Shown piece by piece: positions 10,342 to 62,168 of a stretch of 64,000 bases of DNA. The position numbers were made by a program, and so were the translations under genes. Each line of letters opens with the position of its first letter. The stretch's first letter is position 1. The notes below the pieces were generated by a model, which saw only the letters and a list, made by a program, of their open reading frames with translations, was not told where the DNA came from and searched no databases. Source of the DNA: Pseudomonadota bacterium (GTDB taxonomy: Bacteria; Pseudomonadota; Alphaproteobacteria; Rickettsiales; UBA3002); NCBI GenBank assembly GCA_040384265.1, contig JAZKJM010000001.1, forward strand, positions 310,001-374,000, in the 5' to 3' direction.

Positions 10342-10383
10342 ATCATAACGGCTGGCGCCCATCCGTGTGTGACAGTTTGGTGA
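10342..10383 (-). promoter_or_regulatory. TGTGA-repeat promoter of the Ala-rich/M48 operon
   Basis: Half-sites at 10368-10372 and 10379-10383 (TCACC and TCACA on the coding strand, 11-bp period) are followed after 20 bases by a TATGAT -10-like hexamer (10342-10347). Confidence 0.6.
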
Positions 10384-10470
10384 AGAATGCGGATGGCCCA
10401 TCAATTACAACAATTAATTATTGTAATTAATTTAATTCCACATATTATAACGAATACCGCCAACCAACCT

Positions 10471-10513
10471 TCACAAAACCTTCACATTTCTCGTTCGTGG
10501 GAAATGGTAAATT
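10471..10513 (+). promoter_or_regulatory. TGTGA-repeat promoter of the membrane protein/kinase operon
   Basis: Two perfect TCACA half-sites at 10471-10475 and 10482-10486 are followed after 21 bases by TAAATT (10508-10513). The start codon lies 11 bases after the -10. Divergent from the promoter at 10342-10383. Confidence 0.6.
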
Positions 10514-17477: not shown

Positions 17478-17520
17478 ATCATACCACCACCGCGCACCAA
17501 GAAATGTTACAGTTGCGTGA
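17478..17520 (-). promoter_or_regulatory. TGTGA-repeat promoter (leaderless type)
   Basis: Half-sites 17505-17509 and 17516-17520 (TCACG and TAACA on the coding strand) with an 11-bp period, 21 bases before TATGAT (17478-17483), which is 6 bases before the ATG. Confidence 0.55.
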
Positions 17521-17530
17521 AGGTTGCGGC

Positions 17531-21897: not shown

Positions 21898-22047
21898 TGG
21901 GCTCAGAAAAATGCCTCCGGCTCACGCGAACCGGAGGCAAAAGCGAGACAAAAATCAACGTTCCGCCAATGGTTAAACCACCGCAGGTGCGCGTGGGGAA
22001 TTGCGCATTTCGCATGGCCGTCATGCATTTGCCACAGTGCCGATTTT

Positions 22048-22090
22048 TCACGCAATTGTCACACACGGCACTTGTCGTGGGTGTTATGGT
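22048..22090 (+). promoter_or_regulatory. TGTGA-repeat promoter (leaderless type)
   Basis: Half-sites TCACG (22048-22052) and TCACA (22059-22063), 21 bases before TATGGT (22085-22090), which is 6 bases before the ATG of the next gene. Confidence 0.55.
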
Positions 22091-35992: not shown

Positions 35993-36166
35993 ATGAAAAC
36001 GATCCTGCTTCTGTCCACTCTCGCCATGCTGAGTGCGTGCGAGCTACCTGGCAGCCCTATGGCCAATGATGAATGCGGCAGCTATCGCGGCCTCACCGTC
36101 GGCACGATTGAATATAACGAATGTGTGATGCGCATCGACCAGAACACTACGGCAACCCGCAAATAA
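35993..36166 (+). CDS. Small lipoprotein (57 aa)
   Basis: ACGGAG lies 7 bases before the ATG. The product has a lipoprotein signal (MKTILLLSTLAMLSAC) with lipobox LSAC, so Cys16 would be lipidated; the mature 42 residues contain two further cysteines (DECGSYRG, YNECVMRI) that could form a disulfide. It is exported to the periplasmic face of a membrane. Small lipoproteins of this type often have envelope roles; none can be assigned. It lies between valS and the candidate sRNA. Confidence 0.7.
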   Translation: MKTILLLSTLAMLSACELPGSPMANDECGSYRGLTVGTIEYNECVMRIDQNTTATRK

Positions 36167-36224: not shown

Positions 36225-36322
36225 AAAAAAGAAGGCGCTGGATTACTCCAGCGCCCCAAGCTTTCCTCGCACAGAAGAAACTCATAAATTGGTGAAACCG
36301 TGCGGTTTACTGTCCAAGTAAT
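36225..36322 (-). ncRNA. Candidate Hfq-type small RNA, about 98 nt
   Basis: A TGTGA-repeat promoter (36329-36371) with CATACT as -10 points to a transcript start near 36322 on the minus strand. About 70 bases later is an intrinsic terminator: perfect 8-bp stem GGCGCTGG/CCAGCGCC (36234-36255), then TTCTTTTTT. A small internal hairpin (AAACC/GGTTT) is also visible. No gene of useful length fits between them. Promoter, size and U-rich end are as expected for an Hfq-dependent sRNA, and hfq itself begins about 195 bases away on the other strand. Existence of the transcript is inferred. Confidence 0.5.
36234..36255 (-). terminator. Intrinsic terminator of the candidate sRNA
   Basis: Perfect 8-bp GC-rich stem with a 6-base loop, followed on the minus strand by TTCTTTTTT. 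Confidence 0.75.
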
Positions 36323-36328
36323 ACCCTG

Positions 36329-36371
36329 AGTATGCCACGAATAATGGGCATTCTGTGTGACGGTTCTGTTA
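36329..36371 (-). promoter_or_regulatory. TGTGA-repeat promoter of the candidate sRNA
   Basis: Half-sites 36356-36360 (TGTGA) and 36367-36371 (TGTTA), 21 bases before CATACT (36329-36334) on the minus strand, the same geometry as the protein-gene promoters. Confidence 0.5.
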
Positions 36372-36516
36372 AGATTCAGTCCTTCGCCCGCCGCGCGGGA
36401 TGGTAAATATATTCCCCAAAACGCTTGCTTTGCCTATGGGTTACCAGTAAACAGGGCGGGATTTTGGAGAACCGGAATCCCATAAAAACGACCAAAAACC
36501 CCATCAAGAGGCATCC

Positions 36517-36789
36517 ATGGCAAGCGAAAAAAGTCAGAATATTCAAGATGTTTTCCTCAACACCCTGCGCAAGGAAAAAGTGCCGGTCACGGTGTTCCTC
36601 ACCAGCGGTGTGAAACTGCAAGGCAATATCAGCGGCTTCGATAATTTTTGCGTCGTGCTGCGCCGCAGCCCGCAAGTGCAGCTTGTTTATAAACATGCCA
36701 TCGCCACCATCGTGCCAAGCACCAACATCAGCCTCTACAAAGGCGAAGATGAAGATGCCCCGGCTACGGATGCCGCACCAAGCGCCTAA
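36517..36789 (+). CDS. hfq: RNA chaperone Hfq
   Basis: The 90-aa protein has Sm1 ([20 protein letters not shown]) and Sm2 ([10 protein letters not shown], where the usual KHAIST reads KHAIAT). Gln8-type and Tyr/Lys/His RNA-contact residues are recognisable. It forms a hexamer that pairs sRNAs with mRNAs. The C-terminal tail is short and acidic, typical of alphaproteobacteria. hflX follows after 6 bases, the conserved hfq-hflX pair. Confidence 0.96.
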
Positions 36790-38186: not shown

Positions 38187-38618
38187 CTAAGACGTACCCC
38201 CATAAAGCGCCGCTTCCGCCGCCCGTCGGCGCACCAGCCCCGGCAATTTGCGCCCATCCGCCCACACCCAGCGCATGAACTCGCCCGCCACCGCTTCATC
38301 CTCGCCCCGGTTTATCACCCGGCGCAAGGTCGAGCGCTGCAACGCCGCCGCGCCGAGGTTAAAAGTGAAGCTCACCAGCGCATCCCTCTGGCCCTGCGTC
38401 AGCCGCCGCGCAACCAACCGGCCCACTGCCGCTTCTGCAATCGCCACATCCTCCTGCAGCAACGCCTGCGCCATCGCGCGCGTCACCGGCGCATGCACTG
38501 CTGAGGGCAGCACATGGCCGTAACCAATCGTCCAATAACCCGCCGGGCAGCGATAGGGCTCGGCGGCAAATCCCTCAAAATCCTGAATCAGCTGTAACCC
38601 GCGTGCGGAGGTCGCCAT
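38187..38618 (-). CDS. Phage-type endolysin, GH24 lysozyme
   Basis: The 143-aa muramidase has the T4-lysozyme catalytic spacing: E15, C24 and T30 (YRCPAGYWTIGYGH), where T4 has Glu11, Asp20 and Thr26. The second residue is Cys instead of Asp; known T4 D20C remains active and CPAG forms exist in phages. No signal sequence, so a holin is needed for release, and holin-like genes lie immediately upstream. It is the last gene of the GTA/prophage cluster. Confidence 0.9.
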   Translation of the reverse strand: MATSARGLQLIQDFEGFAAEPYRCPAGYWTIGYGHVLPSAVHAPVTRAMAQALLQEDVAIAEAAVGRLVARRLTQGQRDALVSFTFNLGAAALQRSTLRRVINRGEDEAVAGEFMRWVWADGRKLPGLVRRRAAEAALYGGTS

Positions 38619-38619
38619 G

Positions 38620-39129
38620 TCACTTCACCCCGTGTTTTTTCATCGCCCGCTGGCCGAACCAGAACGCCATGATCGCCGAAAAAATAGCGACATCTTCTTC
38701 CGTCCACAGACTGGCCAGCGCCTGCCCCATCGTCAACCCACTCTGCCACGGCAGACCGGGCGCAAGCAGCATATGGAACTGCGCGCATTTCACCAAGAAA
38801 TAGAGCATGAAAAACGAATAGGTAATCACCGGCCGCACCGAGCCCGCCAGCGCATCCACCCAGTGGATGCCGGTGAGTGAATCCTTCACCCGCGCATTCA
38901 GCGCGCCCTGCTCAGCCGTTACGGCCTGTAGCGCAATCTCTTGCAGCTGCACGTTTCGCACCGCCACCTGCTCACTGGCAGCGGCCACGAGCCGCGCGCG
39001 GTCATACTCCATCTGCAGCTTCAGCAGCGTGATTTCATGCGCGCGATCCTTGGCATCACGAAATAGTTTAAACATATCGGGCACCGCGCTCGAGATAAAC
39101 CCAAGCAATGCGCTAAATAACGCAATCAT
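38620..39129 (-). CDS. GTA-type 3TM holin
   Basis: The 169-aa protein has an N-terminal hydrophobic segment (MIALFSALLGFISS), a long charged coiled coil (about 25-85) and two further membrane segments (VRPVITYSFFMLYFLVKCAQ; VAIFSAIMAFWFGQRAMKK). This is the layout of the 3TM holin family used for gene-transfer-agent release. It is adjacent to the endolysin with a 1-base gap, forming a lysis cassette. Confidence 0.85.
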   Translation of the reverse strand: MIALFSALLGFISSAVPDMFKLFRDAKDRAHEITLLKLQMEYDRARLVAAASEQVAVRNVQLQEIALQAVTAEQGALNARVKDSLTGIHWVDALAGSVRPVITYSFFMLYFLVKCAQFHMLLAPGLPWQSGLTMGQALASLWTEEDVAIFSAIMAFWFGQRAMKKHGVK

Positions 39130-39152
39130 AACCGCTCCTGGACATCGTTTTC

Positions 39153-39419
39153 CTATTTATGAAAAAACGAGGTGAGGATGCCCACCCCCTCAATCACCAC
39201 CGCCCCAAACGCCGCCGCCAGCGCGATGGATGCCGCATACGCCCCCTTGCCGCGATCCATCATCGCGGTCAGCGCATCGAGCTTGCTTTCCATCCGGTCG
39301 AACCGCTTCTGCGCCGCATCGTGATGCGCCCGCTGCTGCTCGCGCAGCCCGCTGATCTGCTCCTCCACCACCGCGATCCGCACCGCGTGGTGATGCTCGC
39401 GCCCACCGCCTTCATACAT
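39153..39419 (-). CDS. Small membrane protein, XhlA-like lysis accessory
   Basis: The 88-aa product has an N-terminal coiled coil (VVEEQISGLREQQRAHHDA and following) and a single C-terminal transmembrane helix (AYAASIALAAAFGAVVIEGV). That pattern matches haemolysin XhlA-type phage proteins that assist holins. Placement directly upstream of the holin supports a lysis role; direct evidence is only the topology. Confidence 0.65.
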   Translation of the reverse strand: MYEGGGREHHHAVRIAVVEEQISGLREQQRAHHDAAQKRFDRMESKLDALTAMMDRGKGAYAASIALAAAFGAVVIEGVGILTSFFHK

Positions 39420-39428
39420 ACGAACCCC

Positions 39429-40043
39429 CTAGTTATAGACGATGAAGCCGACCGACGTTTCCGCCGTCGCCGCCGCGTTCAGGCGAATGGTGAACGACCC
39501 CGCCGCGGGCACCACATTCTTAATCACCGCCGTCGTATCGTCCGTGCGCACCACCGCCAGCACAATGCTCGCCGTGCCCACCACACTGTTCGTCACCACC
39601 AGCGAACTCGCACCAGCCGCAACATTCACCGTGCCGCTGGGTTGGTTGATGGTCTGCGCGCCCGTTGTGCCAGCCTCCGTGTTGGTCGCAAGCAACGTCG
39701 GCTTGCCGCCCACCGCCACCACCCACGCCGTGCCGTTGAACTGGTAATACAGCGACTCATCGCGCACCCACAGCCGCATGCCAGTCTGCGGCGCCACAAA
39801 CCGCCAGACCTGATCGAAATACGTGAGATACGTCGCCTTGCCGCTCCACGCCCCTGTCGGGCTGGCCGCCACAATGTAAAGCAACCCCGCCACCGGCGAT
39901 CCGGGCGGCGTCGCCAGATCCTTATCCACCACCGCGCTGGCGGTCACCGCATCCATCAGGCCAAACGCCTGGTTAATCGTGACCTCTTTTTGCGCCTGCG
40001 ACGGGTCAACCAGCGTCACACCGAAATTCGGAGTAGTAGCCAT
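39429..40043 (-). CDS. Phage tail-fibre-type protein, DUF2793
   Basis: Start at 40043 after GAGG gives 204 aa beginning ATTPNFGVTLVDPSQAQKEV, the DUF2793 signature (NQAFGLMDAV, GSPVAGLLYIVA, TYFDQVWRFVAPQTGMRLW), followed by a beta-rich C-terminal receptor-binding-like domain. These proteins are found at the distal end of phage and GTA tail gene clusters and probably form fibres or spikes. The longer frame to 40079 has no ribosome binding site. Confidence 0.8.
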   Translation of the reverse strand: MATTPNFGVTLVDPSQAQKEVTINQAFGLMDAVTASAVVDKDLATPPGSPVAGLLYIVAASPTGAWSGKATYLTYFDQVWRFVAPQTGMRLWVRDESLYYQFNGTAWVVAVGGKPTLLATNTEAGTTGAQTINQPSGTVNVAAGASSLVVTNSVVGTASIVLAVVRTDDTTAVIKNVVPAAGSFTIRLNAAATAETSVGFIVYN

Positions 40044-40124
40044 AAATGCCTCAAAAATAGTGGTGATATAAAAAAACATCGCGTACCATAGGGTAACGCG
40101 ACGTTAGAAACGAAGGAGTGCGCC

Positions 40125-48504: not shown

Positions 48505-48546
48505 ATCATACCATTTGGCATGGCGAGGAGTGTGAAGCTTTTATGA
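48505..48546 (-). promoter_or_regulatory. TGTGA-repeat promoter
   Basis: Half-sites 48531-48535 (TGTGA) and 48542-48546 (TATGA), 20 bases before TATGAT (48505-48510) on the minus strand. Confidence 0.6.
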
Positions 48547-48561
48547 CAATCCGTGGAAACC

Positions 48562-50365: not shown

Positions 50366-50408
50366 AGAATAGCAAAAACCGCTGAATTCCAGTGTGAAGC
50401 TTTTGTGA
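50366..50408 (-). promoter_or_regulatory. TGTGA-repeat promoter (leaderless type)
   Basis: Two perfect TGTGA half-sites (50393-50397 and 50404-50408), 21 bases before TATTCT (50366-50371), which is 7 bases before the ATG. Confidence 0.65.
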
Positions 50409-50440
50409 CAATCGGCGGCGGCAGCGCCCCCGGCAAACGG

Positions 50441-52522: not shown

Positions 52523-52565
52523 AGTATAAGCCAAGCAGCCCCCTCCATGTGTGACAGTTGTGTGA
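52523..52565 (-). promoter_or_regulatory. TGTGA-repeat promoter, minus arm of a divergent pair
   Basis: Two perfect TGTGA half-sites (52550-52554, 52561-52565), 21 bases before TATACT (52523-52528). Confidence 0.65.
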
Positions 52566-52593
52566 AAAATCACCCGCTAACCGGCCGCCATTG

Positions 52594-52636
52594 TCACACA
52601 ATCTTCACACTTAGCCCCCCACCGTTTTGCTACTAT
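52594..52636 (+). promoter_or_regulatory. TGTGA-repeat promoter, plus arm of a divergent pair
   Basis: Two perfect TCACA half-sites (52594-52598, 52605-52609), 21 bases before TACTAT (52631-52636). The two divergent boxes are 28 bases apart. Confidence 0.65.
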
Positions 52637-62110: not shown

Positions 62111-62154
62111 AAAATACCACAGCCGCGTCGTGTGATAGTGTGAAGTTTTTGTGA
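62111..62154 (-). promoter_or_regulatory. TGTGA-repeat promoter (leaderless type)
   Basis: Two perfect TGTGA half-sites (62139-62143 and 62150-62154), 22 bases before TATTTT (62111-62116), six bases before the ATG. A third TGTGA lies at 62131-62135. Confidence 0.6.
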
Positions 62155-62168
62155 CAAAACAGTTAATT

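Follow-up and report, generated by a model that had tools for sequence, protein, structure and literature searches.

A conserved small RNA gene beside hfq, with a promoter and a terminator of its own, in a Rickettsiales-lineage alphaproteobacterium

Within a stretch of 64,000 nucleotides from a Pseudomonadota bacterium (GenBank assembly GCA_040384265.1, contig JAZKJM010000001.1, positions 310,001 to 374,000 of the forward strand; GTDB lineage Alphaproteobacteria; Rickettsiales; UBA3002), hereafter the window, we found a small RNA (sRNA) gene beside hfq. Judged from the comparison of related genomes, this gene, here called sRNA-A, is real and previously uncatalogued, and it occurs family-wide with a promoter and a terminator of its own. 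Its product is probably a regulatory RNA. The reading that we favour, and regard as fairly likely to hold as a whole, is that of a stand-alone, Hfq-type, trans-acting sRNA that is activated by a response regulator and founds a new family.

An earlier note, made from the letters of the window, had described ten promoters of one kind, one of them on the minus strand near hfq, driving no gene and followed by a perfect 8-bp terminator with a U-rich tail. These elements were found in place. An activator box, a direct repeat with 11-bp spacing of the form TTAACA-N5-GTCACA, lies at 36356..36372 on the minus strand (read from 36372 to 36356 as TTAACAGAACCGTCACA) and fits a motif with 28 sites genome-wide; the -10 element CATACT (36329..36334, minus strand) lies 21 nt past it. 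With a start placed 7 nt after the -10 element (± 3 nt), the sequence predicts an RNA of about 98 nt, 36225..36322 on the minus strand and thus opposite to hfq, as had been proposed. The intrinsic terminator (36225..36257, minus strand), GGGGCGCUGGA-GUAA-UCCAGCGCCUU followed by CUUUUUU, proved stronger than claimed: its hairpin runs from 36257 to 36232 with 9 Watson-Crick and 2 G-U pairs, the tail CTTTTTT reaches 36225, and the site was the top terminator-like one among the 5 kb scanned. Between promoter and terminator lie a 5′ palindrome, AAACCGCACGGUUU (36295..36308, minus strand), whose sequence differs among genera, and a core, UUUCUUC-UGUGC-GAGGAAA (36262..36280, minus strand), which is a likely hairpin and the candidate seed; in 11 of 12 genomes its 17 leading nt show no variation. 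The predicted 98-nt RNA folds at -34.7 kcal/mol, with a z of -3.62 against shuffles. In the lowest-energy fold of the window genome, the core hairpin is not formed and the 5′ CGCACGG pairs instead with CUGUGCG of the core; two conformations are possible, and here the core loop may also find a partner in the 5′ palindrome.

The existence of an sRNA gene with its own promoter and terminator is strongly supported by conservation and covariation. A DNA search recovered the region itself from genomes of the same genus, along with short matches throughout the family, and a covariance model (R1) was built from seven seed sequences. The relatives, here given as G numbers, are all metagenome-assembled genomes, some of them incomplete, and their database records read uncultured Rickettsiales, Rhodospirillaceae or Alphaproteobacteria. 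R1 matched 12 of the 14 family genomes with one strong copy per genome (E 5e-19 to 3e-10; the E-values are rough, coming from a short calibration, and the genome counts are small). The core TTTCTTCTGTGCGAGGA is identical in 11 of the 12 copies. The twelfth, in G002, reads UUCUC-UGUGC-GAGAA: the altered stem still pairs through compensatory change and the UGUGC loop is kept, with a deletion of 1 nt. In the alignment of the 12 sequences, pairing holds in 95.7% of cells, two-sided changes occur in 9 of 18 pairs (35 two-sided cells), and the covariation score of 0.539, against at most 0.154 when the structure was slid, was reached by none of 500 shuffles. Eight of the 11 terminator pairs carry such two-sided changes. 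Beyond the family's 12 copies, an R1 search of a 263-genome sample of the order returned no convincing copy; its single marginal match, in G048, has a terminator and no core and was rejected as a copy of the sRNA. A search of 385 genomes sampled from the class for the core pattern with one mismatch gave only single-mismatch strays, none of which scored as the sRNA.

The promoter was retained together with the RNA. Ten of the 12 genomes have box, spacing and -10 element ahead of the core, against 0.04 expected from shuffles. The earlier note had held that relatives lacking the promoter or the terminator would count against the idea; such loss was looked for and not seen, the terminator being present in all 12 copies and the promoter in 10. 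That the promoter drives no gene is judged from the lack of any conserved open reading frame (ORF). In the window genome the box is a hybrid, its first half being TTAACA, which is unusual as a first half in the regulon described below, and its second GTCACA. G000, G001, G003 and G004 have one TTAA half with GTCACA as the second half, while G002 has two TCAC-type halves and no TTAA half. At the same place, G005, G006, G007, G012 and G013 have an exact TTAA-N7-TTAA.

From this arrangement, whose promoter, terminator, structure and conservation the sequences demonstrate, a mechanism can be proposed. An OmpR-family response regulator, bound to the direct repeats that cover the -35 region, would activate the CATACT promoter, and transcription would stop at the intrinsic terminator to give the RNA of about 98 nt. 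The U-tailed terminator and a U-rich segment would bind Hfq, the product of the neighbouring gene, and the near-invariant core UUUCUUCUGUGCGAGGAGA, a weak stem able to open, would pair with trans-encoded mRNAs. The RNA has the features of the Hfq-type class, namely its own promoter, a U-tailed intrinsic terminator, no conserved ORF and a conserved candidate pairing region; by analogy, its layout, with a variable 5′ part before the near-invariant core, would be that of Hfq-type trans-acting sRNAs. Hfq dependence is plausible, given that the terminator has a U tail and that the gene is linked to hfq. Since in this genus the box matches that of a regulon of uncharacterized proteins, and a VirB operon has related boxes, the sRNA is probably co-expressed with that programme and would retune other genes when the programme is on. 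When targets were sought as core complements in four same-genus genomes and as duplex energies over 495 starts, a complement was found at a ribosome-binding region in G000 (duplex -26.4, which places it only in the upper tail of the 495 starts), and in G004 a perfect core complement of 15 nt spans a start codon.

Several results weigh against this reading. No target site was common to the same-genus genomes searched, the sites in G000 and G004 being unshared, and the duplex energies near the 495 starts single out no target. The R1 search did not find the sRNA in the family members G008 and G009 (94–96% complete), and G010 and G011 have no recognizable promoter box at the sRNA. The TTAA-N7-TTAA boxes of other genera indicate that the co-regulation component of the proposal is genus-specific. 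The covariation stems mostly from the terminator; in the core helix four of seven pairs never vary and one shows two-sided change, so that the pairing of this nearly invariant stem is only modestly supported, and such strong conservation with little covariation could also reflect binding of a protein. The last point leads to the principal competitor, an unlikely one, in which the RNA binds a protein or acts as a decoy, the core hairpin and linker sequestering an RNA-binding protein with no mRNA pairing at all. It would agree with a core whose stem and loop are both nearly invariant while the remainder drifts, with the lack of a conserved mRNA target in the searches above, and with a second sRNA that occurs in the same genomes in the same layout (fixed hairpin, CUUGGGG, terminator) with a different core. 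Against it, sRNA-A is single copy with one binding hairpin and seems to carry no known protein motif, such as the repeated GGA loops of CsrA.

The position of the gene bears on a further alternative, which we consider improbable, that the conserved DNA tunes hfq in cis, by divergent transcription or as shared regulatory DNA, and that the RNA is incidental. hfq (36517..36789, plus strand; Pfam Hfq, E 2.7e-30) is the immediate divergent neighbour of the sRNA in 10 of the 12 genomes, with 210–332 bp from the core to the hfq motif, even though the sequence and gene on the far side change among genomes (G011 was left out of this assessment for its short contig). However, what is conserved is an RNA structure with compensatory changes, and G005 keeps the RNA despite an intervening gene that sets it about 1.3 kb from hfq. 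It is more improbable still that a genuine promoter and a genuine terminator merely lie near each other, as a relic or as a stop for read-through, and that no functional RNA is made. This genome has many terminators and many boxes, but in 10 of the 12 genomes box, spacing, -10, core and terminator have stayed together as a unit. Least credible of all is a short mRNA encoding a small peptide. The window genome does have an ATG before the core (AUGAGUUUCUUC...) with a frame open through the terminator, but relatives have ACG, ATC, TTC or other triplets in its place, insertions of 1–3 nt and the 1-nt deletion of G002 break the frame, and several genomes have stops, so this reading was rejected for the loss of both start and frame among relatives.

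Given the distribution of the box, the window genome was analyzed for the regulon to which the sRNA promoter might belong. Scanning the 2.0-Mb genome with the pattern KTMACANAANNKTMACA gave 28 exact box sites and 58 with at most one mismatch; the reversed pattern gave 0 and 1, respectively. Ten places in the window carry this box, that of the sRNA included; the genome-wide motif scan located the others at 10368..10384, 17505..17521, 48531..48547, 50393..50409, 52550..52566 and 62139..62155 on the minus strand, and at 10470..10486, 22047..22063 and 52593..52609 on the plus strand. A [TC]ANNNT element follows 19–22 nt after the box in 21 of 26 distinct exact sites, against a background of 7.9%, and the modal distance from box to -10 is 21 nt, the position of the sRNA's CATACT. 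A standard sigma-70 scan does not pick up these promoters, as would follow if the box takes the place of a -35 element. The proposal that the sRNA shares its regulon with the other promoters of the window is thus supported for the window genome, where box, spacing and -10 agree, but shared control is not kept across the family, since the sRNA of five genomes has TTAA-N7-TTAA. Among these is G005, which clearly possesses the TCACA-type regulon as well: a 382-kb sample of it contains 11 promoters of the TCACA type, against 0 for the reversed control, and yet its sRNA box is of the TTAA type. Membership of the sRNA in the TCACA regulon is therefore plausible in the window genome on the strength of its box, but it would be not ancestral or not shared.

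The boxes mostly precede uncharacterized Ala-rich or membrane proteins, and an RTX-repeat protein (L169 3901-5778) also has one; these proteins are candidate secretion substrates. No Pfam domain was matched in ten regulon proteins (nine within the window and one just beyond). Related box arrays precede a VirB2-VirB2-VirB4-VirB6-VirB8-VirB9-VirB10 type IV secretion operon, whose -10 element is some 10 nt away from the last repeat but some 20 nt from the first pair, so that its promoter class is ambiguous. This operon (C3 of the same genome) opens with two duplicate virB2 pilin genes (L171 6805-7176 and 7981-8352), identical over 90 compared residues and 1176 bp apart, and continues with VirB4-B6-B8-B9-B10; 11-bp repeats in an identical array precede each virB2 copy. 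The earlier picture of an envelope regulon with a porin-repressing sRNA was not upheld, given the regulon proteins free of Pfam matches, the VirB operon with related boxes, the lack of a conserved target and the CtrA-consensus box TTAA-N7-TTAA in five other genomes; "envelope regulon" is a guess, and "secretion-linked regulon of unknown proteins", though better founded, is still a guess.

Direct repeats of 11 bp are typical of OmpR-family regulators, nine of which are encoded in the genome, including a true PhoB and a true CtrA. The PhoB regulon is characterized by Pho-type repeats, a -10 element about 10 nt after the box and phosphate genes; the sRNA box has a spacing of 21 rather than 10, and no phosphate genes were found in the set of downstream genes inspected, though the pst operon itself could not be placed. 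A CusR-like response regulator with its histidine kinase (L158; L169 9444-12773) lies 11 kb beyond the window end and has box-like repeats in its divergent upstream region. Its close orthologues are missing in G001 (95% complete), G004 (92%), G007 and G011, and this system is not favoured as the controller, because G001 and G004 have none and yet G001 keeps TCACA-type boxes. ChvI was rejected as the regulator, since its published sites, TTGC-N3-GCAA or GCC-N8-GCC (PMC9731502), do not fit the sRNA box. TTAA-N7-TTAA, in turn, is the core of the CtrA consensus (PMC9791040). We can only speculate, and think it rather doubtful, that a family-specific sRNA with a lasting coupling to hfq was handed from CtrA-type control in other genera to the TCACA-type regulon, possibly governing type IV secretion and candidate effectors, in the genus of the window, which would make it a rewired post-transcriptional arm of a secretion programme in these Rickettsiales-like bacteria.

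MicA and RybB, sRNAs of the enterobacterial sigma-E regulon, offer a parallel in logic, an sRNA being part of a stress regulon, but the sRNA-A promoter has a direct-repeat regulator box rather than a sigma-E-type sequence, and its regulon is not recognizably an envelope one. In an Rfam scan no family reached its gathering score for sRNA-A, and permissive scans gave only chance-level or terminator-driven matches. The suhB/MmgR (RF00519) and BjrC68 (RF02353) RNAs resemble it as short alphaproteobacterial RNAs with a hairpin, a linker and an intrinsic terminator. Nine sRNA-A loci scanned at the permissive cut-off matched neither; suhB/MmgR had no sRNA-A match at the gathering cut-off either, and BjrC68 was not reached, the G002 copy giving a weak 21.4 bits against a cut-off of 39. 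In logic, the closest known systems are two sRNAs of Caulobacter crescentus. ChvR is activated by ChvI and represses the TonB receptor ChvT post-transcriptionally (PMC6237742); compared by description, it is likewise an alphaproteobacterial sRNA under an OmpR-family regulator, but it is Hfq-independent, and ChvI motifs are absent from the sRNA-A promoter. CcnA is CtrA-dependent (PMC8959179), which recalls the TTAA-N7-TTAA at the sRNA promoter of five relatives; it differs in being a 182-nt RNA at the replication origin, and the window genome's box is a hybrid and not TTAA-N7-TTAA.

The second conserved family, sRNA B, is found in the same genome (C2:117242, L166) and at L121-L126 with an invariant GUUGCUUGCCGAGCGACUUG and a terminator, preceded by GGCGCC-type and variable hairpins. 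Its weak, sub-threshold matches to BjrC68 and suhB rest mostly on the terminator. In G011 the sRNA-A core TTTCTTCTGTGCGAG and its flank are tripled with a 51-bp period (L009 1525, 1576, 1627) upstream of a single terminator. Near sRNA-A, a 57-aa ORF with a lipoprotein-like signal (35993-36166, plus strand) lies between valS and the sRNA, and a similar small ORF seems present at the same place in G002. Further along, at 38187-40079 on the minus strand, a row of lysozyme-like, membrane and tail-like proteins looks by eye like a prophage or gene-transfer-agent remnant.

sRNA-A is a new RNA family of a known kind, with the layout of Hfq-type trans-acting sRNAs, and it comes from a lineage whose RNA regulation is almost entirely uncharted. 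Rickettsia genomes have been reported to lack hfq (PMC5105140); an sRNA linked to this gene in their Rickettsiales-like relatives would therefore offer a handle on the losses that came with intracellular life. Early-branching, probably free-living Rickettsiales with an rvh type IV secretion system have been described (PMC9352585). In its own genome, the sRNA marks a large uncharacterized regulon, of which a type IV secretion system may be part.
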